Assembly: GCA_964023275.1 (NCBI GenBank)
Contig: OZ029914.1
Coordinates: forward strand, 12,072,341-12,136,340
DNA: 64,000 nucleotides
Direction: 5' to 3'
Origin: Norana najaformis
Lineage: Eukaryota; Annelida; Clitellata; Crassiclitellata; Hormogastridae
A program made the translations under genes and the position numbers. Positions 6,042 through 55,780 of this stretch are shown here, one piece after another (position 1 is the first letter of the stretch; each line of letters begins with the position of its first letter). The notes under the pieces are model-generated. The model saw only the letters and a program-made list of their open reading frames with translations. It did no database searches and had not been told where the DNA came from.

Positions 6042-6102
6042 ATGGAGCATGCTCTGATACTTCTAGCTATCGGTCTACTACTGAACGTCTTTCCTAAAGT
6101 TG
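6042..6102 (+). CDS. Gene 1 exon 1: signal peptide
   Basis: Twenty codons plus one base. The peptide starts MEHALILLAIGLLLNVF and is a good secretion signal: short start, hydrophobic core, likely cleavage near the exon 1/2 join (about KV-DA). The donor is G|GTAAGT. The ATG is chosen because the same position starts gene 2 (52281) and the surrounding sequence is conserved there. In the third copy (43.75 kb) this ATG is lost. Confidence 0.85.
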
Positions 6103-6461
6103 GTAAGTTTATTAAAGTTCCTACCTTTTAATGAATTACGATAACAATTTTAAGTACGAATAACTTTGCATGTTTTCAAATAATACAGTACGTTTGATTT
6201 GCAAATAAGAAACACCTGTCGACAGAACGATCACCACTATGAACTAAGCTTAAATTTTAGGCTTAACTGAAACACATAAATATTAATTACTCAATATGAT
6301 GATGGGATCAAAAACATTAAACCACGCGTATAGTGACAAAACTGAAAGCCACTATCCCTCACTACTTAAGTGAGATTTTCATTTCACAAAAATAGTATGC
6401 GATAATTATGAAGAATGATGGGACAGAAACTATTAAATTATGTTTACTTGTGGAATTTTAG

Positions 6462-6761
6462 ATGCGGAATTGAGAGTGATTCCTCGCGACACTGAAGTGA
6501 TGGTTAATGAATTGACTTACATGAATTGTTCGACGTCTCTTGAAGCGGAGAAAATCCAATGGCGTCATGACAACAATTATGTCTACGCGGGAAGACATAT
6601 TCTAGAGCCTTATAATGTCAGGTTTTCAGTAGAAATAAACTCATCTACAGGAACAAGCAATTTAGTTATTCGATCAGTCCAACCTTCAGATGCCGGACAA
6701 TATGAATGCTTAGAGGATGAAGGGTCTGGAGAACGCAGATCGGCTCAGTTAATAGTGTTAG
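6462..6761 (+). CDS. Gene 1 exon 2: first Ig-like domain
   Basis: Exactly 300 nt, phase 1 at both sides, as is usual for Ig-domain exons. The fold is shown by the B-strand Cys in YMNCS, the C-strand Trp in IQWRH, and the F-strand signature SDAGQYEC. There are Asn-X-Ser/Thr sites in NCST and NSST. The domain is about 85% identical by eye to exon 2 of gene 2, with changes concentrated before the Trp and near the F strand. The acceptor is tttta|g with the AG at 6460-6461, and the donor is G|GTATGT. Confidence 0.88.
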
Positions 6762-7324
6762 GTATGTTTGCATTTTACCGCTTTTCAAATTTTGAAAGTA
6801 ATGTCTGCTAAGACTCGACATCAGGGTGTTAGAACACTCCCAGACATAAACTGTGTACTGTCGAAATTCTACCACAATTGCCTGCCGCTTGGTAATTTTG
6901 CCCAGTTATTTCAAAAGGATACAGTTAGTCTTAACTACTACTATGATTTATGTGCACGTTCTGCTTTTAGCTGAGGCAGCCTTTCGAGAAACAAACTCAA
7001 TTATTCGCCTTTTTTTATCAACAAAAGCTTATCATTCGAAGACTGTTAAAATCCCGCATTACTTACATTATTCTTGCAAACTATGTGGAGGAACCATTGA
7101 AACCCTATTAAATAACCAGATAAATAAACAATGTTGGCAAAATGTTTCCTATTTAAATACTTTTTAGAGAATTACTTTGATTGTGAACTTGAAAATGAAC
7201 CTTCTGAGGACAGTAGAATGTCATAATTTTATCAATGCCAAAACGTAATTCAGTTTTATGTCGAGCGATCATAGTCAAATAATCGGAAGAATCTCTAATT
7301 AATTGGAAATCTAATGTGTTTTAG

Positions 7325-7645
7325 ATGACGATCCAGTCTGCAAATCTAACCTGCATTCATGCGGAGCCATTGGACCAAACAGTTGCGGCATTCAACCAGA
7401 CGAAATCGAACTTTCATGTAGCATAACATACCACGGCAACATTTTTCCAAATCTTCAATGGAAAGCGAGCGGAGACAATCAATCCATTACAGAAGGACTG
7501 TCCAACTTTACCTCTAGCAAGAATGTCACTTACACACTAACGATGAAAAGTACACTTGATCTAAGTGACTCTTCATTTATTTGCCAGACGACGAGATCTT
7601 CCAAGAGAAACTACAGTTGTTCATCTGACGTCATAAAAATTTTAT
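7325..7645 (+). CDS. Gene 1 exon 3: second Ig-like domain
   Basis: 321 nt, phase 1-1. It contains LSCSI (B strand), LQWKAS (C strand) and SSFICQ (F strand), with extra paired cysteines near the start (VCKSNLHSC and SCGI) and end (YSCSSD). N-glycosylation sites are visible in NQS, NFT and NVT. The acceptor is tttag| and the donor T|GTGAGT. This exon has no counterpart in gene 2: the homologous stretch there is replaced by a transposon with an adjoining deletion. Confidence 0.85.
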
Positions 7646-9735
7646 GTGAGTACACCTTTTAATTTGTAGGGAAACAGAGCCAGGGCATCGAGTACAATAT
7701 TAGCTTATGTGTTGATTAGTTGTTTTACTCTTGTTAACATTAGGTAGAAATGATCCCTTGGGATTAAACTATGAGGTTAGGAGTAGACAAGTATACGAAC
7801 AAAATTTAATTTGTACATTGTCACATCATAAATGATTAACTTTCACGGATCTAGAAATTGGATTTCCTAAACTTTCAATGTTGAAACGCCCCTTTTAGAA
7901 AATTGCGGATAGTGATATATGGAGATTTAAGAATGGAACAAATAGTATAATGGCAGTGTGCAGAAGGCAGACTAACAGTGGAAGCAAAGGAGGCAATGGA
8001 ACCCGATAAACATAAGAAAGACAAACAGAAACTGTAGAAACTTTGTTATGCACACGGTTAGTACTAACAGGCGTCCTAAAACGTTTTTTAAGCGAGTGAC
8101 ATCGGTAGATCCCAGTTACTGAATGCCGGTTTTTAGGCAGATAAAATTCCTGGATGAATCGGGAATATTGCTATGCTAGTTGCTAGGAATCAGCGTAGTT
8201 GTAAATAGGCCAACGTTGTATGCAGGCCTACATAATATCATATTGCAAAACCAATTCAAGTCTTCTTATTTTGTCCGATTCCTTCCAAAAACCACTTCGG
8301 AATTAGTACCGCTCGCCACCAAGACTGTCATGACTGATTGATTGTTCGCAATGGAATACTGGGGACAAAATCAGTCTTGTTCAGTACTCCCTTTTATCAA
8401 ATAAATGTTCTCCGATGAATGAGGCAGGAATATGCAAAGCGCTCATAAAATACCAAAAGTGCATAATTATCGCATGACCTGAAAGGGAGACTAAATTTAC
8501 TTAACTGTATCATGAACTGCATGTGTAAATGAGCATCGCAAACGTTTGATACAAGTGCCTTTAATCTGCTTCTTTTTTGTGGACACCTAAATGGAAAAAT
8601 GGCTCCATTGCCCCACGCAGAACGTAGAGCAGATACTCATTCCCCGACGAATCCAAAGATCCTAGACACAAAGTATTGTAAATTTTAGATTATTTTTAAA
8701 ACAGGACATGCAGAAGACTCTACATAATGGTAAGTATAATGCCTGTAACTGCATCACAACTAAAACAAAGAGCAAGTTGTTGGCTTGTGTTCAGTCAACC
8801 GTGCACTATACCATGTGTCATATATATATATATATACACAAAGCATTTCATAAATAATACACAGTAAAACAATATAACCTTCCATCTGCCTAATAAAAAA
8901 TTAACTTGAAAATAATTCCAACAATCTTTTTTAGATACCTAGTCTCTGAATTAGTTTTCTGACATGTCATGTTCGTGTCACAACAAATGTAAACATGACT
9001 GAGAAAACCTTCACAAAATCTGAAAAGTTAATTTGCGAGAATACATGAAGGAGTCAAATGAGTCAAATTGAGTTATTGGCTGGTTTATAATACTTGTATT
9101 CATACTTTCACTGTAATTCTCTAAGTCCTTATGTAGTGTTTCGCTGTCTAAATATTTTATTTGCAAATTTATTATGATGCCATGCATCAAAACTCAAGTT
9201 AGGATATCTCCTTGGAGCCCTAATCTGAAGTCGCGTACATCAACTATAGCACAACTGACCAAGTTATGTACATATTCGTCTTAATCAGATTCTAGGCACA
9301 TTTTTAGGTGTCATGGCAACTCCCAAAACGTATGGATACGCTTCAATTAACTCATACTCATAAGCATTATCAACATATAAGCACAACGACTTCGGATTAT
9401 AGTTGTAAAGTTTTATACCCTAGGGTTTTGATTATAATCGGCTCACTTACTGACGTGAAATTTTCGAATTTCAGCAGATTCAGTTAATGCTACGTGGCGT
9501 AAATACTAGCAGTGACAAAGCCATTTGAATGCTGACGAAGATTTACAATACATTTGGCTCTCGGGGATTTTTTTACTCTTGCCACACAGTGTGGAATGTT
9601 TTAACGACTAGCATCAAAGATAAAACTCTTCCAATAGCAAGTTTTAAAAAGAAGCCTAAAACTTATATGATTAATAGATCTGCCTAGATTCCTGTGCATT
9701 CCCGTTGTTCTATAAACCATGACATTACTCGATAT
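7646..9735 (+). other. Gene 1 intron 3, left part
   Basis: No coding sequence was recognised. There is a short (TA)n at 8820-8837. The stretch 9170-9600 is homologous to 55845-56460 in gene 2, which helps place the deletion in gene 2. The Gypsy element begins at 9736. Confidence 0.6.
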
Positions 9736-9835
9736 CGTTACGTGATGGGCTGGATATCAGCCCATCCTTGTTGTAAGCACACCTGTTAAAAGGCACAGCA
9801 CTGTCAGTTGAATAAAGGACGTTAAACTCGTAACA
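9736..9835 (+). repeat. Gypsy 5' LTR (100 bp)
   Basis: It differs from the right LTR at only a few positions (the first base, one C/T near the middle, and the 'gttaaactcg' versus 'gtaaaacacg' end). It includes the inner palindrome 'gggctggatatcagccc'. At 100 bp it is very short for an LTR, and no convincing TATA box is visible in it. Confidence 0.9.
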
Positions 9836-9905
9836 CGAGAGAGACCAAAAGACACAGAGTTAAAAACTATAGAAAACCTCGATGGACTAAACAAACTTCA
9901 GATAT

Positions 9906-10242
9906 CAGAGAGAATTGTGATTTCTGCGGTCGATTCCACCCAAAGGGTAGAAATGAATGTCCAGCATCGGGACAGACATGCAGAGGCTGCGGATTTGCCA
10001 ACCACTTTGAACGAGTCTGTAAGCAACGCAGACCTAAACAAAAACTTACGGTGAAACAAATGGAAGACGACGATTCAAACTACACAGAAGAATGGGTCAA
10101 CAGCATGGAAAACCAAAAACAGTTGAAGCGTGACGTTAAATGTAAGATGTTAGTAAACGACGAAACAATTGTCACATTTCAAATAGATACAGGAGCAACG
10201 GTAAATATATATTCTACCCGTTCGATATGCACCGTATGTTAA
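9906..10242 (+). pseudogene. Gypsy zinc knuckle and aspartic protease
   Basis: One open frame gives a Cys-rich knuckle (CDFCGRFHP, then CRGCGF, then HFERVC at about 9927-10023) followed by a retropepsin start with the catalytic triad QIDTGATVNI at about 10180-10212. The frame then breaks. Only about 90 bases separate the left LTR from this region, so the capsid part of gag has been deleted. The protein remnants identify the element but cannot support particle assembly. Confidence 0.8.
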
Positions 10243-10346
10243 ACCCACGTGGAAAAAGCTAAAAGTGTGGAATGGAACACAAGCTAAACCTTTTGGAATC
10301 TGTAGAACAAGGATAAGAAATATAAAAAAACAACAAGAAATACAGC

Positions 10347-11664
10347 GTGGAATTCGTTGTTGCTAAAGACAACATGATACCATTACTGAGTTGCTCAGCA
10401 GCGGAACAGATGAATTTAATAACGATCAACCATGAAAATATGAATATAGTTGCCTCTATATCGGTGGTCGACAGATTCAAAAACGTATTTGACGAAGAAT
10501 TGGGATGTTTCGAGGGAAGTGTTAATCTAAAGGTAGACTCGTCTGTTCATCCTGTTGTCATGCCTTCTAGAAGGTTACCTATTGCAATACGAGATCAGTT
10601 GAAACTCGAATTAAATCGCATGAATAGATTGGGTATTATAACACAAGTAAACCAACCTACTCCATGGGTCAATCAAATTGTAATTGTGAAGAAGTCCGGA
10701 AAATTACGCATATGTATTGATGCAAAGAAACTGAACAAGGCCCTACAGCGGGTGAGGTATTTACTGCCCATATTAGACGACAACCTGCACGAACTGAGCC
10801 AATCGAAATTCTTTTCAAAGGCTGATTTTGCATCCGGATATTGGCACGTCCAAGTAGACACAGAGTCAAGTTATTTGACGACATTTCAAACATGCTTCGG
10901 ACGGTATCGATGGAAAAGGCTTCCATTTGGAGTCAAGGTGTCAGCAGAGATATTTGCGAAGAATCTCATTGAAGCACTTGATGGTTTGCAGGGAGTGATT
11001 TGCATCGCAGACGACGTTATAATTCACGGTAGAACAGAGAGAGAACACGACCAAAGACTGGAGGAATTTTTGAACAGATGTCAAGAAAAAAGCGTAAAAT
11101 TAAACAAAGAGAAATTACAATTGCGGATGAGATCGATAAACTTCATGGGACACCAGATCAATGATAATTGTCTAAACCCCGATCCAGAAAAGACAAGAGC
11201 AATTTTGGAACTGGAACCTCCAGAGAATATAGAAGGGTTGCGACGAATTTTAGGCATGATAAATTACCTCGCAAGATATTTACCGAAGTTAACTTTCATC
11301 ATGGAGCCTCTCAGGAATTTAACAAAACTCGAAGTACCGTGGACATGGTCGGAGACACAGGAGAAAGCATTCCAGAACGTCAAAAGACTGGTCACTGAAG
11401 CTCCAGTGTTAGCCTTCTACGATCCAGCAAAGGAACTGACGATTGAGAATGATGCGTGCGAAAATGGGATTGGCTCAGCGCTACTACAGGAAGGACGACC
11501 GGTGGCTTATGCAAGCCGAACACTGTCGGACGCGGAATCGAGATACGCTCAAATTGAAAATGAGATGCTAGCTGTTGTCTATGGACTCGAGAAGTTCCAT
11601 TGCTACGCATACGGACGCCATTCGACCATAGTAACTGACCACAAGCATTTAGTAGCTATATTGT
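10347..11664 (+). pseudogene. Gypsy pol: reverse transcriptase and RNase H, first part
   Basis: A 439-codon open stretch. RT motifs are visible in order: LGIITQVNQPTPWVNQIV, then FSKADFASGYWHV, LPFGVKVSAEIF, and the catalytic IADDV at about 11003. The tether region (LGMINYLARYLP) and RNase H (ENDACENGIGSAL and YAQIENEMLAVVYGLEKF) follow. It stops at TDHKHLVAI because the LINE at 11665 is inserted there; the frame resumes as APKRLQ at about 15040. The missing piece is only a few codons. Confidence 0.9.
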
Positions 11665-14600
11665 AATTGTAATTGTAATTGTAATCTGACATTTATAAAG
11701 CGCCACTTCAAGAATAGACTCATCAGAAGCGCTCCCGACCCGAACCAGTGAGACCACTGGCAAATAACACAGACTTCAGGCGCTTGCGAAACTGCTGAAG
11801 AGACAAACTGAGGAATACTAGCCGGAGCTCTCGGGAAAGGCGATTCCAGCTATTGGGTCCAACATAGGCAAAGCTTCTAGACTGCGCTGTAGCAGTGCGC
11901 ATACGAGGGACAGTCAGGAGTCCAAGGGAGGCCGACCGGAGAGTGCTAAGGCCTGGAACCAAGGAGACCGAAATGCAGAAGTCCCTAAGATATGATGGAG
12001 CAGAGCCAACAAGACAATTACGCATAAGCGTTAGGATCTTGAACTGGATACGCTGCTGAATGGGAAGCCAGTGCAGAGTGTCCCGTATAAAGGAAGTTAT
12101 ATGGCCATACCTGGGGACGCCTCCAATAAGACGGGCAGAAGCATTGAGATCAGACTGAAGCTTGGAAATATTGGCAAGTGAGAGTCCAGCAAAGATAGCG
12201 TTACCAAAGTCCACCCTAGTGCAGATAAGGGCATGAATTAGAGTAGTAACGGCATGAAAGGCGGATGGTACGAATCTGACGAAGGTGGTAGAAGCATGAG
12301 CGGGAGACACTGTTAACATGATCGGTCAAGGAGAGTTCCCGGTCCAGAACAACCCCAAGATCACGGACTTTGGAACAGAATAGAATGTCCGGAAACCTCT
12401 GGCGTAAGGATGATGAATCAATCTTTGCCAGCTGAGCACGACCACCAAGCCAGATGAACTGGGTCTTAGCAGAGTTCAGTCGGAGGCGATTAGAGGACAT
12501 CCAGAGACCAAGGGCAGATGTTGCGTCAAGAATCCTCTCAACGAGAGAGGAAGCCGCTTCCGCTGGGCCATGAGCGAAGGCCTGAATGTCGTCTGCATAC
12601 TGATGGACAGCAAAACCCATAGGAAGGAGAACCCGTGCCAGGTCGGCAGTGTACAGAATGTAGAGGAGAGGGGCCAGAACAGAACCCTGAGGAAGGCCAA
12701 AAGGTATAGGGGACCAGACGGAACGTGTAGGCCCAAAGATAACAGAATGAGAGCGGTCTGAGAGGAAAGACTGAAACCAAAGAAGGGCCGTATCAGTAAT
12801 GCCAAAAGATTTTTCTAGACGCTCCAAAAGGATAGAGTGATCCACAGTGTCAAAACCAGCACTAACATCATAGAGGGCAAGAAGAGTAACATGTCCACGG
12901 TCAAAAGCTCCAAAGACGTCAGCCAGGAGACGTGTAATAAGTGATTCAGTAGAGTGGAACTTCCTAAATCCGGATTGAAGAGGAGGCATGAGGGAGTTAG
13001 AGTCAAGGTAGTCGACCAGTTGGACGGACACACATCTTTCAAGAAGCTTAGAGAGGAAGGAAAGGTTAGAGATAGGTCGGTAGTTAGAGATATCATTGGG
13101 GTCAAGTCCCTGGCGCTTGAGAGAGGGAAAGACTACAGCACGTTTGTGAGAAGCCGGGAGTGAACCCTGACCCAGGGAGGTATTACATAGCAAGTGTAAG
13201 AACGGAATTAAGTCATCTATAAAATCCTTGATTAAAAATGGCGGTAATAAGTCCAGTTCACAGGACTTAGCAGGTGACTCCAGCAGGAGCCGACGAAGGA
13301 CGTCCAAAGGCAGAGGCTTCCAGCATGAAAGCCTAGATGACGTAGGAGGAAAGGAAGGAGGAGGAGAACCATCAGTGGATTGGCGGATCGAGTCGATCTT
13401 CCCGCGCATGTAGTCGAGGTAGTCGTTCGCTGTGAACGGAGGCTGGGCCGGAGAGTTAGAAGCGGTAGAACGGCCGAGGACACCGGAGAGCGAAGACCAG
13501 AGCCGACGTGGATTGCTCCTCTCCCGATCAATCAATGACTCCCAGTATGCCATTTCTTTGGCTCGAAACTCCCGGTGCATTAAGCGAAGATGGTGGATCC
13601 AGTCGAGACGATCGGCAGGATCACGTGTTCGTCGATACCTTCTCTCGTGCCGCCTGACATCACGACGTAAAGTACGGCAGGATCGGTCAAACCAAGGTGC
13701 TAACGGTCTCCGAAGGGCCCGCTGCGGACGAAGCGGAAGGAGGCCATCGATGAGGAGGCGAACTGAAGAGTCAAAGAGAGCAAAGAGCTCTTCAGACGAA
13801 CGACCAGCGAGGGAGGAGAGGTCTCCGCAGAGAGGACTATTGTTCAGACCAGCACGGAATGCCTCACGGTCCAAGTTGTTCCAACCACGTACAAGCCGAA
13901 GCGCGTATGTTGGCTGGGTACAAAGAAAAGGAACTTTGTATAGAAGAAGTCCATGGTCTGAGAGAGCTGGAGGTTCTACTATAACATCTGAGATGTTACA
14001 GTCATCACGGGTGATAATGACTTCAAGCCAGCCTCCCAGCACATGAGTAGATTCAGCGACATGCTGAATGAAGCCAAATTGGAAAAACAGATCGTTGAAG
14101 CGGACAGACTCTGGAAGATCTGGGTTCTCGAGGTGAATGTTCAGGTTCCCGGTTATGATTAGCTGGCAGTTGAAGGTGGCGAAGACTTCCAGAAGCGAGG
14201 AGAACTCGGTGTAGAAGGTCGACGTAACAGGAGAGGAGCCTGGCCGGTAGAGGGCAAGAACAGTGACTGGACCACGAGTCGTGGCGCAGGAGAGGCATAA
14301 TGCTTCGAACGTGGAAACAGGGAGAGGAAGAGGGATCTTTTTGACCCGAAAATGTTCTCGATGATAGACAACAATGCCACCATGATTTTGCGCAAGAGGA
14401 TGCGAATCACGTGAGGGATCAACCGGGCGAGGAGCATCGAGGAATAGGTAGCCCGGAGGAGCAGCGCGTCGAACCGGAACATCAGAGGAAGAGGAGTGCC
14501 AAGACTCCGTGACGACGAGAATATCCAGATCATGCTGAGAGATAGAGTTAGCGATCTCCATAAACTTATTTCCCAGTGACCGAGCGTTCAGTGTCCCAAG

Positions 14601-15035
14601 TCTAAGTCCATCACTGCCACCCAGGTCTGAGGGCAGCCGAGAGGTAGGCGACGGAGCAGAGTCCAGCGGTGTAGGCTGAGATTGGCAGGAGGGAGACGAT
14701 AATCCAGGCCGTGAAGATGCCGGTCGCCATAGATGAAGCTTGAATAGAGTCTTACGTAAGGAACGTCGAATGGTGAGAGGGGGTTGATTGTAGGTACGTA
14801 GCTCAGCGGAAGTGTACACACGAGTCGGAGGAGTGAGGGAAGGAGCGGCCATCTTGTCAACTTAATTCAAACAAAATTAAGATAACTCACGCTCGTTAAC
14901 CCAAGAACAAACAAGCCGTAGTAATCCACAAGTTAGATAGCGTAGGTATAATCCAACAGAAAACGCAAAAAACGCCCGAAGTTGACGAACACGCCGAAGC
15001 GCAAACATGACGTCATCCGCAAACATGTACTAAGC
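11665..15035 (-). mobile_element. Nearly full-length CR1/L2-like LINE nested in Gypsy
   Basis: A minus-strand element of about 3.37 kb inserted inside the RNase H of the Gypsy copy. It has a 5' leader of about 180 bases (14853-15035), one long ORF and a 3' end of (ATTACA)n type at 11665-11685. A full-length copy is unusual, since most LINE insertions in this window are 5'-truncated. I could not identify a clean target duplication. The element is younger than the Gypsy copy because it interrupts it. Confidence 0.88.
11723..14852 (-). pseudogene. LINE ORF: AP endonuclease plus reverse transcriptase, one frameshift
   Basis: From the ATG at 14852 the protein runs 878 codons to 12216. Residues about 85-300 form an exonuclease-endonuclease-phosphatase domain (LGTLNARSLGNK, VVTESWHS, SDHGLLL). 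About 480-740 form the RT, with YRPISNLSFLSKLLER, GFDTVDHSILLERL, GLPQGSVLAPLLY and the catalytic YADDIQ. The thumb (SSNRLRLNSAKTQFIW) follows. The frame is lost near 12255; the C-terminal region continues in another frame from about 12250 to 11723 (RLIGGVPRY, LHWLPIQQRI). A single indel seems to separate this copy from an intact ORF. Confidence 0.88.
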
Positions 15036-16107
15036 CGTCACATAAAGCGCCAAAGCGATTACAGACTTTGTTGCTGCGCACACAGAAGTACAGTTTTACA
15101 CTTATATACAGACCCGGAAAATCGATTCCACTAGCTGACGCTTTATCACGGGCACCACTGCCAAGCAAACCGAACGGAGGGGTATTTACTCTAAATAATG
15201 TATCATTTCTCCCGATCAAAGAGGAAAAGCTAAATGAAATTAGAAATGCAACAGAAAATGACAAAACGATGAAACTGCTGAAGAACGTAATAATCCAGGG
15301 ATGGCTGGGAGATAGATCACAACTGAGACCTGTCATCACACCATATTTTGATTATCGTGATGAATTAACAGTACAAGACGGTATCATTTTGCTAGGTGAA
15401 CGAGTCGTTATTCCAATGTCATTACGACAGGACATGAAAAAGAAAATCCATGCAGGCCACATGGGCATAAATTCATGTCTACGAAGGGCCCGTGATGTGA
15501 TCTTCTGGCCGGCATATCTAAGGAGATTAGACAAATGGTCGAAACATGCGATGTTTGTGCAACATATAGCGACAAACAGCCTCCTGAAACGATTTTCTGG
15601 CATGAGGCTAACCGACCATGGCAGAGGGTGGGCACAGATCTGTTTATAATTGAGGATCGATGTTATCTGATATCAGTTGATTTTTTCAATAGTTTCTTCG
15701 AAGTAGATTTTTTACAAGAGACGTCCAGCAAAACGGTAATAGCAAAGGTCAAACAGCATTTCGCTAGACATGGAGTTCCAGACGTGCTGGTCAGTGACGG
15801 AGGTCCGCAATATGCTTCCGGTGCGTTCAAAAGATTCAGTACAGAATGGGGTTTCAGACACGAAATCACAAGTCCAGGAAATAATAAAGCCAACGGTGCA
15901 GCAGAAGCCGCGATCAAGATAGCAAAAAGAATGATGAGACGATGTCAGGCGGTGAAAGAGGATCCATTCATGGCATTATTAAATACGCGTAACACTCCAA
16001 CGGAGGGCATGGAAACAAGCCCAGCACAGCGCATCTTTGGGAGACGCAACAAGACTTTAATTACCAACAACGGCAGGGATTTTACGCATGTCTTGAAATG
16101 TAAATAA
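15036..16107 (+). pseudogene. Gypsy pol: end of RNase H and integrase
   Basis: The RT/RNase H connection resumes at APKRLQ and continues through IYRPGKSIPLADALSRAP. The integrase HHCC zinc domain is split by a frameshift near 15535: HAGHMG lies in one frame and CDVCATY in the next. The catalytic core follows with D in GTDLFI, D in SDGGPQYAS and E in NGAAEAAIK, the DDE triad. The frame ends at 16107. A further C-terminal piece (VRIQPLAPGEGKW and RTYWRNRQFLR) lies in another frame at 16189-16350. Confidence 0.88.
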
Positions 16108-16351
16108 AGACGCAAAGATCAGAGATGCGAAACGAGCAAACGTAGCGCAACATGCAGACAAAAAAGGAGAGACCTGAGACCCTTACAAGTGGGTAGCCCG
16201 GTAAGAATTCAGCCGTTGGCGCCAGGGGAAGGTAAGTGGACACCTGCTGTCGTGACGTCACGAAGGTCCAGCCGTTCTTACGAAGTAAGAACACAAGATG
16301 GACGCACCTACTGGCGCAACCGACAATTTCTGCGACAGGCGGGGAACAGAA

Positions 16352-16451
16352 GGCTGGGAGATACATCACAACTGAGACCTGTCATCACACCATATTTTGA
16401 TTATCGTGATGAATTAACAGTACAAGACGGTATCATTTTGCTAGGTGAACG
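16352..16451 (+). repeat. 100-bp internal duplication of pol within Gypsy
   Basis: This segment repeats 15303-15402, also inside the element, with one visible mismatch (taca for taga). It sits between the integrase C-terminus and the 3' untranslated part, in the same orientation. The likeliest origin is template switching during reverse transcription. Confidence 0.9.
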
Positions 16452-16550
16452 TTGATCGTTGATAGTTTGAACTGTTGATTGTTTGAACCACTGATCGTTG
16501 GTCACTGTTAGGCACAATTTTAATAAGGCATGAAATAATTTTATTTTATT

Positions 16551-16664
16551 TAAAAGAAGAAAGGTGTTACGTGATGGGCTGGATATCAGCCCATCCCTGT
16601 TGTAAGCACACCTGTTAAAAGGCACAGCACTGTCAGTTGAATAAAGGACGTAAAACACGTAACA
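16551..16664 (+). repeat. Polypurine tract and Gypsy 3' LTR
   Basis: A purine run (aaaagaagaaagg, ending at 16564) directly precedes the LTR at 16565-16664, as expected for plus-strand priming. The 'gatat' target duplication follows at 16665-16669. Confidence 0.88.
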
Positions 16665-16745
16665 GATATTACTCGATAGGACTTTTGTAGGGTCGTTGCA
16701 CGCGCCTTTGAGGCTGTTGTTAAATGCGCGCGTATAAATGTATGT

Positions 16746-16790
<45 letters not shown>

Positions 16791-16949
16791 GTATTTGACT
16801 GTGAACTGGGGCTTAGGCATTGTTCCAAAGTTTCGCTAATGCTTCGCAGGACTGGTTGTTTGACTTCCAGCTTATGCCGGTACCAAATTTGACTACTTCG
16901 CGACAAAGAAAAGTGTGGGCAAACAATGTAACATGGAGTCTACTCACCA

Positions 16950-17030
16950 GTTTCGAACCCGCAATCTTTGCATAATAGACCAAATCCCACAACGAATCGA
17001 CCAACGTGTCGCACCCATTAGCCCATAACA
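16950..17030 (-). repeat. Degenerate tRNA-like SINE head in intron 3
   Basis: Read on the minus strand there is a B-box-like 'gggttcgaaact' with an A-box-like region about 45 bases upstream. The orthologous spot in gene 2 intron (56420-56495) holds the same sequence in better shape, so the insertion predates the gene duplication. The fold is too decayed for a functional tRNA. A short (AAT)n lies at 16748-16789, and the rest of 16665-17137 is plain intron. Confidence 0.5.
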
Positions 17031-17137
17031 ATTTATACACGAAATTGATATTTTTCAGTTGTGTTGTTTCAATAGCAGCTATGTGCGTGTATGAAGTAGT
17101 TTGATGCTTCAATGCTTTTGGTATTTAATTCAATCAG

Positions 17138-17383
17138 ACATCCTCAGCAGCAACGTCACAATTAAATTGACAATGGATGACAAAGTCAGTTGCTTCGCGA
17201 ACACCAGCCAATCATGCATTTATAAATGGAAATGGATCAGCGGCAATGATTCCATCACAGTGTCTAATGATCAGACTTTAATACCAAATAGAGTTGGAAC
17301 ACATCGTTGCGAAGCTACATGTTCTTTAGGGTACAAGTCATGTACAGTGGAGCCCATGTATGCTGATGTTTATTCAACTCTAG
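17138..17383 (+). CDS. Gene 1 exon 4: third Ig-like domain
   Basis: 246 nt, phase 1-1. It carries VSCFAN (B strand), YKWKW (C strand) and GTHRCEATC (F strand), with additional cysteines in QSCIY and KSCTV that may form a second disulphide. It is shorter than the other two Ig domains and lacks the DxGxYxC pattern, so it is a divergent C2-like set. It is well conserved in gene 2 (58968-59219). The acceptor is aatcag| and the donor G|GTAAGA. Confidence 0.82.
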
Positions 17384-17793
17384 GTAAGAATTTTTCAGTC
17401 CTATCACGGAATTTGGCTCTGAATAGCGATGGCCAACCCAATTACTAATTATTCATCTAGTTGATAACGTGCTTATCAAGATTTGTTCTTATCTTTTGCA
17501 TTTATTTTGAATTACGGAAGGCTTGATTTTTAATTTTCTCCTACCAAAAATTTAAAACGTTGGATTTCTTTCAGTTTTCTAAATTCCGAAACTCTGCGTT
17601 AAATATCGCCTGCTTTGCATGCCTTGGTACCTAGTTAGCTTTTCTAGACGAACAGAAGATTTTTACAGTTGTTATGTTTTATGCAGTCGCTTGAGCTGAA
17701 CAAGTCTATTAACGACTATTTTAATCTCTTACAATTTTGAATGACAGCACAATTTTTTTTTTGTAACGAAGTAGTATATTTTTTTTGTTTTAG

Positions 17794-17889
17794 CTCCCAT
17801 CAGACAAAATCTGTTTGCACTGTTGGTTCTGTTTGCTCTGCCAGTGATTGTACTAATCGTTGTGGTCATGTATTACTGGAGGAAAAGCC
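17794..17889 (+). CDS. Gene 1 exon 5: transmembrane helix
   Basis: 96 nt, phase 1-1. It encodes about 22 hydrophobic residues (NLFALLVLFALPVIVLIVVV) followed by the stop-transfer sequence YYWRKS. This places the Ig domains outside the cell and everything downstream inside. A pyrimidine-rich tract leads into tttag|, and the donor is C|GTAAGT. Gene 2 has the same exon at 59632, but its donor is altered. Confidence 0.88.
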
Positions 17890-18805
17890 GTAAGTATAAA
17901 CCTCGTTTATTAGAGTTTAAACTTCCTACTGTCAGTAGTTTGCATAACAAAACCATCACCTACAAAATATATAACAATAATAACAGCTTCGCCACTTTCC
18001 CATATTTGAATTTTGAATGTGAGCAAAATCGTCTACTTATAGACTTGTATTATACTCATGACGTTGCGACACATGCGACTATTTGGCGCCAACCAACGGA
18101 ATTAAGTTTCGGTTTTAAATACCGCTTCAATGAGCTAACTAGTACCATATTTCTAGAACTCCTGTTCCTAAATTTGGGGCATGAAAATTCTTTGTTAAAA
18201 TTTTGGCTTATCTTCAGGAATTTCCAATTTGAAATATTTCTTCTATATTGGACACGAAAAATTACTTTCTGTTGAAACACTATTTTGGGATCGAAAAGCG
18301 TTCCATACTTTGAGATGACCTCAGACATGCACTTGATTTGGCGTTTCGGCCCATATTTAGGAATTTATGTTTTTCAGTGTTTCTTTCTCACTCTTTGCCT
18401 TTCTCTCTGTCTATGTGTTTGTATGATCTTCTGTGTTTCTCTGTCATTATAATAATAATAATCATCATCACCATCATCACTGAGGCCATCATTGATTGCT
18501 GTATTCTATGAGTTGGCAATGTCAGACAGTTGCTTCATAAATCCTCAATGTTTTCTTATAAAATAATACGTAAAGTAGATTTGTCTGCATAACGCTACAC
18601 AGTTTTAGATTGACATAGTTTTATTTATCTGTTCATTAAAGTTAGCATTTCAGCTTGAGAAATAAGAGATCGAACAAGTTTAGGACTAGACAGAGTCGTG
18701 GTGAATGCCGATAGTAGCCAGTTTTAGCGATATCTTGTCTTATGTTATCTTTTGAAGCACAGTGACTGATAATAGTGAAATTTTCCGCATTTTCTTGCTT
18801 TACAG
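17890..18805 (+). other. Gene 1 intron 5 with start of the cassette repeat unit
   Basis: No gene. The right part (about 18150-18805) is the upstream half of a roughly 750-bp unit that recurs at 30890-31558 and, in shorter form, at 22400-22898 and 34720-35205. Shared landmarks are 'cccatatttaggaat', 'gcaatgtcagacagtt', 'aatcctcaatgttttctta' and 'ctgttcattaaa'. Each unit leads into one copy of the short cytoplasmic exon. Confidence 0.75.
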
Positions 18806-18889
18806 AAAGTGAGAAACTGCCGTATGAAGAACTAGAAGGAAAAGCGGAACGAAAACTAAAACAGGAACGGCAAATACTAATCGGTACCA
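18806..18889 (+). CDS. Gene 1 exon 6: cytoplasmic cassette 1 with ITIM-like motif
   Basis: 84 nt, phase 1-1, acceptor tttacag| and donor A|GTTAAA. It encodes a highly charged 28-residue peptide, QSEKLPYEELEGKAER and onward, rich in Glu and Lys. LPYEEL (codons at 18817-18834) fits the ITIM pattern (S/I/V/L)-x-Y-x-x-(I/V/L), which in other receptors recruits SH2 phosphatases when phosphorylated. If the donor is not used, the frame ends three codons later at TAA, giving a receptor without a propeller. The motif match is seen; signalling is inference. Confidence 0.72.
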
Positions 18890-19539
18890 GTTAAACCTAC
18901 AAATCAATGGATAACATGCTGTGATTTAGTCTATAATATATCAAAAATTTTCATCAAGTTTATTCAACATTGTCCAGTTTACTGGTCCACGATTGTGCTA
19001 ATTACCATTTTGCCTAATTAAATGCAATGCAATATTTAACAACATTATTCAAACCAGCCCAATTTAAAACTAAAACACGAAAAGTTTCGGATGGCTCAAC
19101 TAATGTCAAGCCTATCATACATGGAGATGAAGCATTGGCCTATTTGCTTTGGATGTTTACACGTATCATGAAAACAAGTTCACATTGTCTGCGAAATTTC
19201 TGAAGATTACGATAGTTTTATTCATAGATCGCAAACGTCACTATAACTTGTGTGGTGTTTTCGACAACTCAATCGAGACTCAACCTGAATTTGGCCTAGG
19301 TTGTGAACAACGAAGTTTAGAATATCCTGTCTTTACTATGGTTTTAGCGTGTGTTTTACTAAATTTCTCTTTTTTTATTTCTAAGAATACTATGCCTACT
19401 AAATAATTTCAAAAACTTTGCAAAATTTTCATGACTAATGAATAGTGCCCTTACGAAGATCAGACGGTGTTTTGCGGTATGGAGTTATGAAGACGCATTT
19501 CTGAAAGTAACGTCATTCCGCTCCGTGACCACCTTTCAT

Positions 19540-20915
19540 CGCATAACCTGTACCTTCTATTCCAATCTGCCTATCGCAAATACCAATCCACTGAAACAGC
19601 ACTACTTGCCGTTCACAATCACATAATCAACTCCTTGGACCAAGGAAAAGTAACTGCTCTCATTCCTTTTGACCAATCTGCCCCTTTCGATACTGTTGAT
19701 CACAGGATACTCCTTTGTCGCCTCGAACATTGGTTTGGTCTTTCCGGCCCTGCTCTCCGTTGGTTTGCATCTTACCTTCACCGTCGTACTCAGTCAGTCT
19801 CTATCAACCAACTCACTTCTGCGCCCACTTTCTTGAATTGTGGCTTTCCACAAGGTTCTGTACTGGGCCCGCTCGTAATCACATTGTACACGACTCCACT
19901 TGGTTCGCTACTTACTAATAGCTGTTTTGACTACCAATTGTACACTGATGTTACTCAGCTATTCCTCTCATTTGACAGTTGTACGTCTAATCGTGCTCTC
20001 CAACGACTTGCTTCAGTTTTTGATGAAGTTCAGTCTTGGATGGCTAGTAACAAACTTCTTCTGAATCCTTCAAAAACTGAATTCCTTCTTCTAGGCACTA
20101 GCCAACAACTCCATACATTTGATTACCTCAGCTGGGTGGTGTGCTTGTCAATCGCACTGACTGTGGACGCAGCGTAAGTGTAATATTTGACTCCAGTATG
20201 TCATTTTCTATTGATGTTGGCATCATGTGCAAATCAGCTTATATTAACATACAGGATATTTGTAGAATCAGATCTATGTAGCCTCATACAGTCGTTGTCT
20301 CACTAGCTAATGCATTGGTTTCCAGCATGCTTGACTACTGTAACTCACTTCTTATTGGCATTGCAATTGAGGATCTGAAGAAACTGCAAATGGTTCAAAA
20401 CTCTCTGGCCAGAGCCATAACAAAAACACCTAAGTATCAACATATCACTCCATTACTCCATTCCTTACACTGGTCACCCATCGAACAATGAATCCAGTTT
20501 ACAATCTGTTATAGTTCACAAGGTACTACTTCTGAATCAGCCGATCTATCTCTGTTCCATGCTTTATTGCACTCGATCAATCAACACAACAACTCTTGTT
20601 GTCCCTCGTACCAGGACAGTGTTGGGTTCCAGAGCATTCTGGGTTGCTGGTCCACCACGGCTTTGGAATTTGTTGCCAAGTCTTATTCGTTCGGTCATTT
20701 TTGTGATGTCATTCAGGTCTAAGCTACAAACTAATCTCTCTTAACTCGATTACGCACCGTAGCCTGGATTTCGGTTTCTCTAACCCATCGGAATTCGTCC
20801 CGGCTTCTCCAGCGGTAAATGATTTTTGACTACGATTTTGACTTGAAGCGACCATCGATTGATGCCTTGAGCATTATGATAACGGCGCTATAGAAGTCAT
20901 TAGATTAGATCCACA
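19540..20915 (+). mobile_element. Degenerate CR1/L2-like LINE in gene 1 intron 6
   Basis: RT fragments run SAYRKYQSTETALL (about 19580), FDTVDHRILLCRLEHWFGL, GFPQGSVLGPL, and a mutated catalytic box YTDV at about 19945 in place of YADD. The thumb SNKLLLNPSKTEFLLL and later the C-terminal region with VPRTRTVLGSRAF and LWNLLP follow. Multiple stops separate the pieces. It ends in 'gcgctatagaagtcattagattaga' type sequence near 20905. The flanking intron halves (19440-19520 and 20920-21110) are contiguous in gene 2 (60490-60720), confirming an insertion after the genes split. Confidence 0.85.
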
Positions 20916-21231
20916 CTTTTTTGTTGATGGCATTGAAAATGCACTTATTCGCACTCGCTGTCTGTTCTTCTTTACGTATATTTGGTTGACACTGTCTATG
21001 TAATCGTGTCTGTCTTCCTCTCGTTATGTCTCGATCACTGCCTCAGTTGTCGTCTTTCTATATGTTTGTCTGTCTCTATCATTTCCTTTCACTGCCCTGA
21101 TATCTTTCACAGCTATGATCATTATCACGAATTTTTCCTTTAATTCGAGTTCAAGTACTGGAATCAAACACTTGAAGAAACATTAGTCTTAATTTAGAAG
21201 TTTAGACCAAGATATTTGTTTGTATTTTCAG

Positions 21232-22262
21232 TTACACTTCCGGAAGAATACAAATTTGACCCAGTTTTAGTTTATACAATCTGTGAAAAAGTCACAAAAG
21301 CGGCAAAGAATTTTGTCAAAGGATTGACGATCTTAGACAAAGAATTGTTTGTTGTGAGCGATAAGAGTTCAGAAGTTAAAGTTTACGAAATGAAGAAATT
21401 CAGGTTCAATCGTGCATGGGATTTGAAGGAATTAATTCGTCCATTGGACATAGCATCCTGCAACAGAAATAAATGTCTCTACATCTTCGATTACAAAGGC
21501 GATGAGAAGTCAAATGAAATCTTGAAAGTTGATCGAGATGGAAAATTAATAAAAAAATGGTTAACAGAAAGCGATTATGGATTGTGTCTATCTGTTTCAG
21601 ATGAATCGAATGTCATTTTGACTGTTCATGAAGAGCATAAATTAAAAGAATATTCGTCAGAGGGAAAATTGATCCGTGAAATCAATCTCTCATCAGACCC
21701 AGATATTCGTTATCCATTCCAAGCTATAAAACTGATGAATGGTCATTTCGTGGTCAGTCATGCAGGTCCTGATGGCGATCGGCATGGAGTGTGTGTTGTG
21801 GAAGTAAATGGAAACAAAATAATTATTAGGAAGTCATTGGTTGGGAAACCTGGATCCATCACCGGAGAAATGAGTGGTCCGTTCCATTTGGCCGTTGATG
21901 GAAATCGATTCGTGATGATCGCTGATGCAGGAGAGAGACGAGTTGTTTTAATGAATCTAGATTTAGAATTTAAACGAGAGATTATTCCAAAAAACAAACA
22001 CGGATTAGGACGTCCTTTCAGGATTCTTCTGGATCAGATAAATCGTCGACTGTTTGTAGCTGACAAAAAGTGGGACTCTGAGGAATCAATGAAACCTGGT
22101 CCAATTTTGATCTTTGATTTAGGTAATTTTAATACGCCCCGATCTTTCACTAAAAAAATGAAAACAATACTGTTCTGCAAATCCTATCCTGATTCTTCCT
22201 ATTCGCTATATCTCTCCGCTCCAATTCGACACACCATCCACCGCACCCGTCTGCCTGCCTGA
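21232..22262 (+). CDS. Gene 1 exon 7: NHL-like beta-propeller
   Basis: The acceptor is ttttcag| in phase 1, and the open frame runs to TGA at 22262. It contains about six propeller blades of 40-50 residues, with recurring signatures LFVVSD...VKVYE, CLYIFDYK...ILKVD, VILTV...LKEYSS, GHFVVSH, RFVMIADAGERRVVLMN and RRLFVADKK...ILIFDL. These resemble NHL/SMP-30-type six-bladed propellers, which bind proteins or RNA. There is no signal peptide of its own; behind the TM exon it would be cytoplasmic. The last 45 or so residues come from a LINE fragment. Alternatively, a donor G|GTAATT at 22122 gives an 891-nt phase 1-1 exon that could join cassette 2. Confidence 0.78.
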
Positions 22263-22898: not shown

Positions 22899-22979
22899 GA
22901 AAACCAATGCTGACTACGCCAAAAGAAAAAGATGGGGAACAAGAAACACCAAAAGAGCCGCCAAGACCAATCGATACAG
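22899..22979 (+). CDS. Cytoplasmic cassette exon 2
   Basis: 81 nt, phase 1-1, acceptor aaaatag| and donor G|GTTAAA. It encodes (R)KPMLTTPKEKDGEQETPK and onward, charged and disordered-looking like cassette 1, but the tyrosine is gone. No stop or frameshift is seen. It could follow exon 5 (TM) or the propeller exon in frame. Whether it is ever spliced in cannot be told from sequence. Confidence 0.55.
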
Positions 22980-24248
22980 GTTAAACATACAAATTCGTAA
23001 TGGCTGGTTATGTTGTAATCACTTAATCAGTAATTAATCAATAGTTCTGATCAAGTTTATTCAACATTGTCTATGTTTGTTTGTTTGTTGTCTATGATTT
23101 TGCAATTGTTATTTTACTACTTTATCTAAACTACCATTATTTTCAATATAATCGACCAAATCATTTGGATAGCTCAAACAATATGAAGCCTATCATATAA
23201 ATTATGGGGGACGGAGCCTAAACTCAGGCGGGTGCTTGGATTTGTTAAAGCAACATGCAAATGTGGTTCCTTTTCCTCTCTGTCAATTCCCAATGGTTTG
23301 AGGTTTGAATGCAAATTAAGCTAAACGTAGACTCTAGAAACGAAGAGAGACGAACAGTTATGACTGACTGGCTTATCCAATCTGCCGCTGTTATGCCTTT
23401 ATGCATGGAGGAAATGTCAAGGTAGGCCTATAGTCCGGCACAGACTCCTAATCTCTTGGGGAATGTCACTTGCATCTGTTCCTGCATAGAATCTCATGGA
23501 TTTTATTGTCTTTACAATTGACTCATCTGTGTTCTGCTGAATGCGGTACATATTGACAGCTAAACACACCAAGTTTGAAGTCACAGTGAATCGAATTCAT
23601 TCCGGAGAATGAGGTGGCATCATTGTAATATAATTAAAAGTATTCAACTAAATATATAGAGAAAACATCATGCTGTCAATGCGTACGCAGACTCTCAAAT
23701 GTCTCCGGTAATAAAGACTAATGCATAGTTCACAACATGCAAACAATTAGACCTATACGATACTGAAATATTAAAGTCTCATGCAATTAACCAGAGGTAC
23801 ACACAATTAACACAGATAACACTTCACACCCCTAGCTTGCTCTATTGATATAATATTATAAGCCTCCTGGAGGCTTAAGCTTATTTTGTAAGTTAGTTTA
23901 AAATTCAAAGGTATTTTTTAAAACAACTGAAAACATGCACTTTCAATGTACAAGAAAATTGTCAAGATAAAATGGACTGATAATGTAAATAGAAAGACCT
24001 AAACATTTACTCTATCAGTAGCATAATAATAGACAAATTTCTGTGTCTGTGCTAATTTATTATCTTACATGGAAACTTTCTAAGAATGACATCGCAGAAA
24101 GCGAACGGTACACTTTGCTGAATTATTTGAATTCACGTTATGAGTTAGGTCCACCTAACAAACTGCCCACACATACAGAATTATATCCCAAGTCAGAATC
24201 AACATACCTGGAGTGGGACCCATCGTCTGCGTGAATGTATGTATGTAT
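22980..24248. other. No recognisable gene
   Basis: Intronic or intergenic AT-rich DNA following cassette unit 2. I saw no domain, RNA gene or transposon end here. One 190-nt open frame at 24043-24234 has no recognisable features. Confidence 0.5.
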
Positions 24249-31558: not shown

Positions 31559-31633
31559 TGATTGAATCGATGGAAGAACCAGAACTAGAAAAAGACCCGG
31601 AAGAACAAGAGCGGGAAAGCCTAATCGGTACCG
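31559..31633 (+). CDS. Cytoplasmic cassette exon 3
   Basis: 75 nt, phase 1-1, acceptor attcag| and donor G|GTTAAA. The ancestral acceptor position (tttaca-t) has lost its AG and a site 10-12 bases downstream supplies a new one. It encodes a very acidic peptide, ESMEEPELEKDPEEQERESL, with no tyrosine. It is open in frame and joins in phase both to the TM exon and to the lectin exon at 35682. Confidence 0.5.
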
Positions 31634-31799
31634 GTTAAAACTATAATTTTTTATGGCTGTCTGTAATATAATTTAGCCTAAGTTTTGCCAAAAGTTCTAC
31701 TTAAGTTTATTCAACATTATCCAGGTTTTTCCTACGATTATGATAATTATCGTTTTGACTTCTTCAGTGCAGTATTTATGCACCTAATAATTAGGTGCC

Positions 31800-34700: not shown

Positions 34701-35205
34701 GCATATGCACTTGAGTTGTCGCTCAGACCTATGTTCAGGGCTGTATGTCTTTCAGTGTTTGTTTTTCACTCTGCCTCTTTCTCTGTAGGTGAAATTGGTT
34801 CATTTTCAGTCTTTGTCAGTGAATTCGGTTCATCTTCAGTGTTTCTGTTTCATTATAAGCATCACCTACACTAAAGCCCCCAATGTTTGCTTTATTCGAT
34901 GGTTTTGAGTAGGCAATGTCAGACAGTTTCTTTATAAATCCTCAATGTTTTCTTATAAAATAATGCGTAAACTAGATTTTTCTGCATAGCACTCTGCACA
35001 TCAGTTTCAGGTCGACAAAAATTTTATTTTATCTGTTCATTAAATTTAGCATTTCAGTTTGAGAAAAAAGAGAATCGAACAGATTAGGCCTAGATAAAGT
35101 TGTTGTATATGCCGTTACAATCCTGTTTTAGCCATATCTTGTCTTTGACGCACAGTGACTTTTAATAGTTACATTTTCCGTATTTTGTTGTTTTTCAAAA
35201 ATTGG

Positions 35206-35285
35206 AAAACCGATGCTCAATTCATTAGAACTAGACCTAAGGGAACGAAATCGACAACAATAGCAGCAAAGACTAATCTCTACCG
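35206..35285 (+). pseudogene. Cytoplasmic cassette exon 4, dead
   Basis: This aligns with cassette 2 (gaaaaccgatgct versus gaaaaccaatgct) and keeps the donor G|GTTAAA, but the acceptor AG has become TG. The length (80 nt) is no longer a multiple of three, and TAG appears in frame after 'cgacaacaa'. It cannot serve as a coding cassette. Its intact donor and upstream unit (34720-35205) show it was once equivalent to the others. Confidence 0.75.
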
Positions 35286-35385
35286 GTTAAATCTACAAAT
35301 TTAAAATGGTTAACTATGTGTTGTAATTTAGTCTACAATTTATCAAAAGTTCTCATAATAGTTTTCTTGTATACGATTATGCATG

Positions 35386-35680
35386 CATGTATGTATGTAT
35401 GTATGTATGTATGTATGTATGTATGTATGTATGTATTACTAAACTTGCATAGCGCTTTGTAAGTTACACAAAGGCGCTGCAGCATCGCTACCTAATGGTC
35501 TCTAAAGGGGAACGTCTTTCCATCTTTTCATCCCTACGTCCTTACGTCCTTCTTTCATTCCTTCCTTCCTTCTTTCCTTCTTTCCTTCCTTCCTTTCTTA
35601 TTTCCTTTCTTCCTTTCGTAAAGATACGTTTGTGCACCGGCGAGCACAGAAAAGGCCTGTATATTTTGATGTGGTGCGTA
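35386..35680. repeat. (ATGT)n and (TTCC)n simple repeats
   Basis: (ATGT)12 or so at 35386-35436 and a TTCC/TTTC tract at 35545-35620, separated by a LINE-tail-like 'catagcgctttgtaagttac'. An open frame that appears to start at 35495 and run into the lectin exon crosses this tract and is unlikely to be a real N-terminus. Confidence 0.8.
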
Positions 35681-35681
35681 G

Positions 35682-35900
35682 GTGAAAGCCCAGGGAGATG
35701 TTTCTACATAAAGAGTGAGCTGAACGAGAAGGTGTTAGACATCGAGAACGAGAACAAATCCCCTGGCGCCCATATCGTTATGTGGAATAAGAAGGAAAAA
35801 GCGAAAGGAGAGAATCCAGACAACCAGCTCTGGTACTTCGATGAACAGAAAATCATTCGATCCAACTTCAACGGTTTGGTCTTCGATTCTTCCGCCGATG
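35682..35900 (+). CDS. Ricin-type beta-trefoil lectin, exon 1
   Basis: 219 nt, phase 1-1, acceptor gcgtag| and donor G|GTAAGG. It encodes the first trefoil subdomain, with FYIKSELNEKVLDI, HIVMW and the first QxW-type box NQLWYF, then FNGLVFDS. Ricin-B/R-type lectin domains bind galactose or GalNAc-like sugars and are often secreted. No start codon or signal peptide is visible here, so at least one upstream exon is needed. The base composition is richer in G/C than the propeller exons. The phase matches the receptor cassettes. Confidence 0.78.
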
Positions 35901-35989
35901 GTAAGGATCCAGCATATGCGTTTCTAGCAAATACAAGGCAGTGGTAGCGGAGGGGTGGTGCTGAATATGATGGTGTTGGCAATGACAAT

Positions 35990-36300
35990 GATTATGGTGA
36001 TAACAATGGCTATAACGATGATAACGAATGATGATGACGATGTTGATCATGATCATGATGATCATGATGATAATGATGATAATGATGTTAACAACAAAAG
36101 AAGGAGAAGGATGAGCAGAAGAAGGAGCAGAAGAAAGAAGAGGAGGAGGAGAAGGAGAAGAAGAAGAAGAAGAAGAAGAAGAAGAAGAAGAAGAAATGTT
36201 CTAAAAATTACATTGTTGTTTGGGGAAGAAGAAAAAGGAGGAGGAGGAAGAGAAATGAATGGATGGATAGATAAATGGATGGATGGATGGTGGTGGTGAA
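35990..36300. repeat. Low-complexity lectin intron: (GAT)n, (GAA)n, (GGAT)n
   Basis: The intron between the two lectin exons is almost entirely simple repeats: GAT at 35990-36090, AAG/GGA at 36100-36200, GGAT at 36255-36290. Poly-Arg and Asp-rich open frames here are artefacts. Confidence 0.88.
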
Positions 36301-36330
36301 CGGTGTTGATGATGCTGATGCTGATTTCAG

Positions 36331-37517: not shown

Positions 37518-37518
37518 G

Positions 37519-55760: not shown

Positions 55761-55780
55761 GCAATATTTAGGATATTGTG

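Follow-up and report, generated by a model that had tools for sequence, protein, structure and literature searches.

Beta-propellers of the NHL type are known from the TRIM-NHL proteins (TRIM2, TRIM3, TRIM71, Brat, Mei-P26 and Thin), and NHL domains are described, in the accessible part of one study, as binding RNA via their top surface (PMC9070667). Expansions of Death-fold/TRADD-N proteins in marine invertebrates are presented, in the available portion of PMC8195603, as large species-specific families with variable, fast-evolving C-termini that include beta-propellers, and are suggested there to be invader sensors. The same source reports Crassostrea virginica forms in which an ectodomain and a transmembrane (TM) helix precede DED/TRADD-N and variable C-termini that can include propellers (PMC8195603), and the accessible part of another describes Hydractinia Alr as a family of immunoglobulin (Ig)-TM genes, with 41 members cited (PMC11999971). 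Here we describe gene 1, at positions 6042-22262 of a 64,000-nucleotide stretch of the genome of the annelid Norana najaformis (GenBank assembly GCA_964023275.1, contig OZ029914.1, positions 12,072,341 to 12,136,340, forward strand; hereafter the window). Its exons appear to join three Ig domains, a TM helix and a six-bladed NHL-type propeller, and the best explanation is probably that it belongs to a set of tandemly expanded type I Ig-TM receptors with a cytosolic variable propeller as recognition module.

The present family is like the TRIM-NHL proteins in its propeller fold (17 of the 17 best Foldseek matches, and Thin by sequence), and unlike them in being membrane-anchored with an Ig ectodomain; a Pfam scan that covered the Ig exons and the propeller exon found no RING or B-box. 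Proteins of the CARD9/CARD11 type are CARD-coiled-coil signalling proteins, and a CARD arm of the present family likewise carries CARD and coiled-coil, here arranged as CARD, CARD, a coiled-coil-like exon and then a variable propeller. Alr proteins carry cytoplasmic tyrosine motifs, which have no conserved counterpart in the linker described here, and we know of no propeller in them. The likeness to Alr lies in an Ig-TM gene family in an invertebrate, as far as the accessible part of PMC11999971 presents it, and neither "propeller" nor "NHL" occurs in its main text. By analogy, the Death-fold/TRADD-N expansions, as set out in the available portion of PMC8195603, are the nearest known system in logic to the present family. 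Their ectodomain is cysteine-rich and their core is DED-TRADD-N, whereas here Ig-Ig-Ig-TM leads directly or through a short linker to an NHL-type propeller; the Pfam scan of Ig and propeller exons found no Death-like or TRADD-N domain, CARD occurring in separate loci only, and the word NHL is absent from the main text of PMC8195603. Among the open-licence PMC papers in the matches listed, no title or abstract opening describes Ig with NHL or CARD with NHL in one protein, which is no proof of absence from print. The Ig-TM-NHL combination with a shared CARD arm was met neither in the available portion of PMC8195603 nor among the literature matches listed. The initial annotation, made from the sequence of the window, had named no established receptor class with Ig outside and an NHL-like propeller inside.

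Gene 1 consists of seven exons on the plus strand with one open frame of 710 residues, all junctions being phase 1, in the order signal peptide, Ig1, Ig2, Ig3, TM, linker and propeller. Exon 1 (6042-6102) carries the start codon and the signal peptide MEHALILLAIGLLLNVFPKV with a gtaagt donor, and is conserved in three of the paralogous loci described below (pA, pB and pD). It is followed by the exons for Ig1 (6462-6761), Ig2 (7325-7645), Ig3 (17138-17383) and the TM helix (17794-17889), by a phase-1 exon for a charged cytoplasmic linker (18806-18883, also called tail A) with the weak donor GTACCA, and by the propeller exon (21232-22122). The seven phase-1 exons with an open frame and the domain order had been proposed initially and are retained, with the length corrected from 712 residues and the C-terminal ~46 residues set aside. 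The splice sites, said to be consensus, are so at five of the six internal donors, which score 4.8-9.5 bits with donor and acceptor matrices of approximate frequencies, and not at the linker donor (0.08 bits). Retroelement frames lie inside intron 3 and the intron preceding the propeller, and are part of the reason for the wide spacing of the exons.

A model of the 296-residue propeller exon product, made with AF2 together with three other rows, has pLDDT 81.7, pTM 0.85 and 24 strands. Its 17 best PDB matches in Foldseek are all NHL domains (TRIM2, Brat, Thin, Mei-P26, TRIM3 and TRIM71), of which the TRIM2 match has E 3.6e-12 and TM 0.75/0.80. Sequence identity to the 17 solved NHL chains is 11-18%, and phmmer finds the Thin NHL domain by sequence (E 1.4e-7). 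The six-bladed NHL-like propeller first read from the sequence is thus borne out by structure prediction and by the match to solved NHL domains. A propeller profile search found 53 proteins at E <= 0.01, 52 of them strong (P0001, P0003-P0053) and the remaining one, P0054 (E 1.6e-4), a distant propeller. Among those scanned with Pfam, four exceed the 20-bit cut-off of the NHL repeat (P0001 29.8, P0003 36.2, P0028 26.9 and P0029 26.3 bits); gene 1 falls below it, as do P0032 (19.3) and the loci L021 (17.2) and L022 (15.6).

The family propeller ends in IFDLGN followed by a stop, found in six of the seven subfamily members compared (L002-L007), including L007, in which the terminal TAA is changed to TGA with the stop retained. 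Gene 1 lost this stop through a 4-nt deletion, and only by this loss does its frame continue for ~46 residues (22123-22262). The extension is 69.6% similar to 32898-32631 on the minus strand, has no match in the Pfam scan of its frame, and has counterparts after the propeller stop in pA-pD; by our reading it is probably the tail of a long interspersed nuclear element (LINE). The C-terminus given in the initial annotation is accordingly no family feature, its last ~46 residues being LINE-like and its relatives stopping at IFDLGN.

On the extracellular side, Ig1 passes four Pfam Ig cut-offs (Ig_3, 6.7e-9), with profile matches to contactin, Robo, NCAM and DCC. Ig2 is a degenerate Ig domain, under the Pfam cut-off (Ig_3, E 0.028), whose best profile match against the PDB is an antibody light chain at E 0.09. 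Ig3 has no Pfam match and is modelled by AF2 as an Ig-like beta-sandwich (pLDDT 84.9); its PDB fold matches are weak, none reaching E <= 0.001, with the best (0.0028) an entry titled 'membrane protein G' and the others mostly Ig-type chains (a JAM-A complex at 0.0036, BTLA) and some non-Ig. The TM helix has a 19-residue hydropathy of 3.4 in gene 1 (2.9-3.5 across gene 1 and pA-pD) and is followed in gene 1 by the basic residues of WRKS. The clear Ig1 and the hydropathy peaks of signal peptide and TM helix place the product among immunoglobulin superfamily receptors, with Ig2 and Ig3 as weak members. Of 14 Ig exons, 13 hold more sequons than their shuffled sequences would predict; an excess in the propeller is not clear.

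Searching the whole genome (608 Mb in 17 contigs; the chromosome carrying the family is C2) revealed five further loci, pA-pE, that keep the Ig1-Ig2-Ig3-TM-propeller order on one strand. In the closest four (pA-pD, plus strand), all compared exons are open, AG and GT stand at the compared boundaries, and length changes are divisible by three; the fetched DNA of pC starts at Ig2, and its Ig1 exon (93% identity) lies just upstream (C2:11166032). The more distant pE (propeller 55% identical) has a signal peptide, Ig1, an intact Ig2 with a decayed second copy, and Ig3; scanning for hydrophobic exons added a single TM exon, in phase 1. A linker motif was not found in pE, and direct splicing from TM to propeller would also fit. 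The GT donor of the TM exon is kept in gene 1, pA-pD and pE, so a downstream exon is needed. Conversely, the propeller frame has no ATG upstream of residue 53, the first lying in blade 1, and a phase-1 AG acceptor precedes the propeller in eight of the eight loci compared (the decayed L021 and gene 2, a second copy in the window, lack it), so the propeller requires an upstream exon. The architecture is kept in six of the nine Ig-type loci whose exons were sought, the other three being decayed or incomplete (gene 2, L021 and pF, which has a cut-off Ig2 and an incomplete Ig3 match). A single-transcript Ig-TM-propeller architecture is therefore very probable on genomic grounds, and the earlier proposal of one transcript encoding such a receptor gains strong indirect support from the order kept in pA-pE, the open exons of pA-pD and the shared strand of propellers and Ig1 exons in the cluster at 10.9-12.95 Mb.

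The linker deserves separate attention, since copies of its exon occur elsewhere in the window. In gene 1 and pA-pD, tail A keeps its donor GTAYCA in five of five, with length changes of +15 and -12; pA and pC have lost its stop codon, which reads TGA in pB. Because the stop is not conserved while the donor GT is, we read tail A as a putative internal linker exon; that it might be a terminal tail with a conserved stop, as the four window copies suggested, is rejected for this copy. Tail B (22899-22984, plus strand), the second copy, follows the propeller both in gene 1 and in pA-pD; its TAA is conserved in five of five, and it may be an alternative short C-terminus. Tail C (31559-31638) has a poor acceptor (score -4.1), and tail D (35205-35290) is degenerate, with no AG acceptor and, by reading of the sequence, an in-frame stop; both are on the plus strand. 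The tyrosine motif noted initially in the acidic linker is no family feature, the linker tyrosine occurring in one of five paralogues, gene 1 itself. A motif search of the linker thus found no conserved cytoplasmic tyrosine motif of the ITIM/ITAM or Alr type.

These tail copies bear on the strongest alternative, a serious one that we hold to be somewhat short of an even chance: that the Ig-TM front is spliced either to linker and propeller or to tail B-type exons (ending DTG*), so that one isoform only would carry the propeller. The position of tail B and its TAA, the four tail copies in the window, and phase-1 junctions that keep either join in frame are all in its favour, as is the absence of a scored propeller before the next Ig1 for 27 of 48 Ig1 exons. 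The unconserved stop and kept donor that make tail A look internal speak against it; the alternative is in any case compatible with an Ig-TM receptor carrying a variable propeller and does not exclude it.

Selection differs along the protein. Pooled pairwise ratios of nonsynonymous to synonymous change (dN/dS, omega) rise from 0.30, 0.44 and 0.45 in Ig1-3 through 0.74 in the TM exon and 1.04 in the linker to 1.26 in the propeller. A codon model gives omega = 0.392 for Ig1-3 (four loci; twice the log-likelihood difference, 2dlnL, 42.9 against omega = 1), and by these codon comparisons the Ig domains are under purifying selection. The propeller gives 1.47 (n=5, 2dlnL 6.0) or 1.37 (n=7, 2dlnL 4.9). 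With blades and faces assigned by ourselves from the strands of the predicted model, entropy over 59 propellers (7 loci and 52 proteins) is 2.06 bits in top loops, 1.25 in bottom loops and 1.13 in strands and other positions; none of 20,000 permutations gave as large a top-loop excess, which holds for the 43 near full-length rows. Eighteen of the 30 most variable sites are in top loops and one in a bottom loop, and in each of blades 1-4 and 6 the inner strand begins with very variable residues (positions 29, 71, 117, 160/162 and 260/262), a place that by our assignment would lie at the mouth of the channel. On the same assignment, the varying face corresponds to the RNA-binding top surface of NHL domains, as described in the accessible part of PMC9070667. 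We regard the evidence for selection as moderate, and the chances that the propeller is a variable recognition module as evenly balanced.

Relaxed constraint in place of positive selection, with the top-face variation as drift in tolerant loops and the propeller as a plain scaffold, is a possibility to which we give slightly less credence than to alternative C-termini. The likelihood-ratio test is weak, the exon is no more variable than its wide flanks (18.7% against 16.9% and 17.2% in 1.4-kb flanks; p 0.26-0.30, not significant), and variation hardly differs between the three codon positions (0.195, 0.188 and 0.177 for the first, second and third); drift of this kind is harder to reconcile with top loops far above bottom loops within the same domain and with variable residues that recur at the same strand position from blade to blade. 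A divergence of the propeller exon faster than that of introns, seen with 500-bp flanks in the closest three copies, was not upheld with 1.4-kb flanks.

Beyond the window, we scored 150 of 400 Ig1, 150 of 507 CARD and 132 of 825 propeller candidates, so that all three counts are lower bounds. All 132 scored propellers are on C2, between 4.0 and 18.3 Mb; four of the 150 scored Ig1 exons contain stops, and all 150 scored CARD exons are over the cut-off, 99 of them on C2. Within 25 kb upstream on the same strand, the nearest module is Ig1 for 26 propellers and CARD for 41, and 65 have neither; Ig1 or CARD stands upstream at this distance in 67 of 132 cases on the same strand versus 2 of 132 on the opposite strand, taken as control. 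Around 40 DNA-matched propellers, a limit of 30 kb gives 15 with Ig, 9 with CARD and 16 with neither, and of the 14 DNA-matched propellers in the Ig cluster, 11 have an Ig1 no more than 22 kb away, against 5.4 in a control with random positions (p 0.0025). Between 10.9 and 12.95 Mb, all 24 scored propellers and all 48 Ig1 exons are on the plus strand, 23 of the 24 propellers have an Ig1 within 25 kb upstream, and the scored CARD exons (150 of 507 candidates) all fall outside.

The propeller also follows other fronts. Locus L022 (C2:5324100-5334000) carries, all on the plus strand, two CARD exons (E 1.3e-8 and 1.7e-7), an exon similar to the coiled-coil part of P0032, and a propeller of the family behind a phase-1 acceptor; P0032 is a single 622-residue frame joining what we read as a coiled-coil-like region to a propeller. 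Both architectures fit a cytosolic propeller and an exon that joins more than one kind of front. Pfam finds no CARD in the N-terminus of P0032, and we do not claim one, the best PDB matches (ATAD2, E 0.07; Apaf-1 CARD, E 0.12) not being significant.

Such fronts raise the alternative of two neighbouring genes, an Ig-TM receptor and a downstream CARD/coiled-coil propeller protein with missed upstream exons. That the propeller family follows CARD exons elsewhere on C2 agrees with it; we nevertheless consider it improbable, given the 24 propellers and 48 Ig1 exons without a scored CARD at 10.9-12.95 Mb, the lack of a credible match in the window to P0032-type N-terminal exons (best E 4.1), and the TM exon donor kept in gene 1 and pA-pE, which requires a downstream exon. 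Least probable is a decaying relic with its propeller free of selection. In its favour are a propeller omega around or exceeding 1, the visible decay of gene 2 and L021, the seemingly incomplete pF and the stop lost by gene 1. Against it, five propeller exons hold no stops where 12.8 would be expected if neutral (at least 286 substitutions; P about 3e-6); gap runs break the frame in 0 of 3 cases in the propeller exon and in 46 of 52 cases in the flanks, by pairwise counts that come from six pairs and are not independent; and stops fall inside the match in only 3 of 132 scored propellers, with none in the other 129.

Our preferred explanation, the Ig-TM receptor with a cytosolic propeller, would work as follows. 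In a type I topology, three Ig domains would stand outside, and a single TM helix and a short charged linker would lead from them to the propeller in the cytosol. The conserved Ig part may bind a constant partner, be it self, a neighbour or a microbe surface, and the propeller, whose variable face corresponds to the RNA-binding one of NHL domains, would be the specificity module, recognising a fast-changing cytosolic partner, either a molecule from an invader or a propeller-type protein that matches it. Such recognition could couple surface contact to CARD-type signalling. The exons examined hold no enzyme domain or conserved tyrosine motif, so signalling would pass through propeller-bound partners.

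Several observations weigh against this explanation. The protein searches found no protein joining Ig and propeller. Among all GTs of the window, 39% score at least as well as the linker donor (tcg|GTACCA). The excess of propeller omega over 1 is modestly significant and uncorrected, the propeller exon does not stand out from its wide flanks, and the top-loop excess does not reach significance when the four closest paralogues are compared (p 0.08). Because the arrays are tandem on one strand, the control on the opposite strand is a generous one. The 65 of 132 propellers with neither module within 25 kb include 12 of the 14 located at 4.0-5.3 Mb and all 8 of those at 10.1-10.9 Mb. In the main cluster, a scored propeller precedes the next Ig1 for only 21 of the 48 Ig1 exons, and many Ig genes may therefore be without a propeller. 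An immune or allorecognition role, which is drawn from the architecture alone, is in our estimate slightly favoured.

The window holds further, less intact copies, all on the plus strand. Gene 2 (52281-59728) has a signal peptide (52281-52341), Ig1 (52676-52975), Ig3 (58968-59219) and TM (59632-59728), with no detectable Ig2 or linker, and its propeller (60871-61738) is decayed, the acceptor AG being changed to AT, with a frameshift and in-frame stops; the support that the initial annotation drew from gene 2 for a single transcript is weak for this reason. A remnant of a propeller C-terminus and 3' region (36979-37529) is homologous to the 3' end of gene 2, and a remnant copy of the 5' end around the signal-peptide exon (43375-44031) matches gene 2 at 79.6%. 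A ricin-B-type beta-trefoil lectin-like coding region, in what we read as two pieces, lies between tail D and the propeller remnant (35639-36521), the first piece just under the Pfam cut-off in a scan that covered this piece only.

One element is present in three copies (44153-46516, 53569-55760 and 56525-58883) that are 99.5-100% identical, one of them inverted and two inside gene 2; each has an open frame of 569-571 residues, the one copy scanned has no Pfam match, and the identity suggests that they are very recent. In intron 3 of gene 1, 9826-16455 is a retroelement with reverse transcriptase (RT) and RNase H domains, which we read as Ty3-like, split by an opposite-strand LINE-like element with an open 881-residue frame for RT and endonuclease.

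Elsewhere in the genome, 98 scored CARD exons flank the Ig cluster (C2, 5.2-10.9 and 13.0-16.6 Mb), with a further array on C8. Another large array occupies C2:0.2-3.4 Mb and consists of Ig1-type exons that are more distant (~39-58% identity, mostly minus strand); no scored propeller lies below 4.0 Mb on C2, and these Ig genes may be without one. Close Ig1 copies (86-88%) at C1:42615919, C8:2939355 and C8:2983861 likewise have no scored propeller. Some Ig loci contain two propellers 9-11 kb apart (for example C2 12025629/12036749 and 12646660/12655348) that differ in identity to that of gene 1, and these are possible alternative cytoplasmic domains of one receptor.

CARD-bearing genes of the same chromosome have this propeller too, which points to a large recognition system of immune type that may be undescribed. 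More tentatively, the whole may be a ~14-Mb complex of two matched arms, surface Ig-TM receptors and cytosolic CARD-CARD-coiled-coil proteins, with interchangeable phase-1 exons of one hypervariable propeller family and diversity on the cytosolic face. If this two-arm organisation is true, diversity would be cytosolic and not in the ectodomain, an inverted logic compared with antibodies, KIRs and Alr proteins, and the propeller would be a modular, germline-diversified recognition domain analogous to the leucine-rich repeats of NLRs. A conserved Ig ectodomain with a diversified intracellular propeller would be a new route to recognition diversity in animals, and such a receptor class would make an invertebrate immune or allorecognition complex directly testable.

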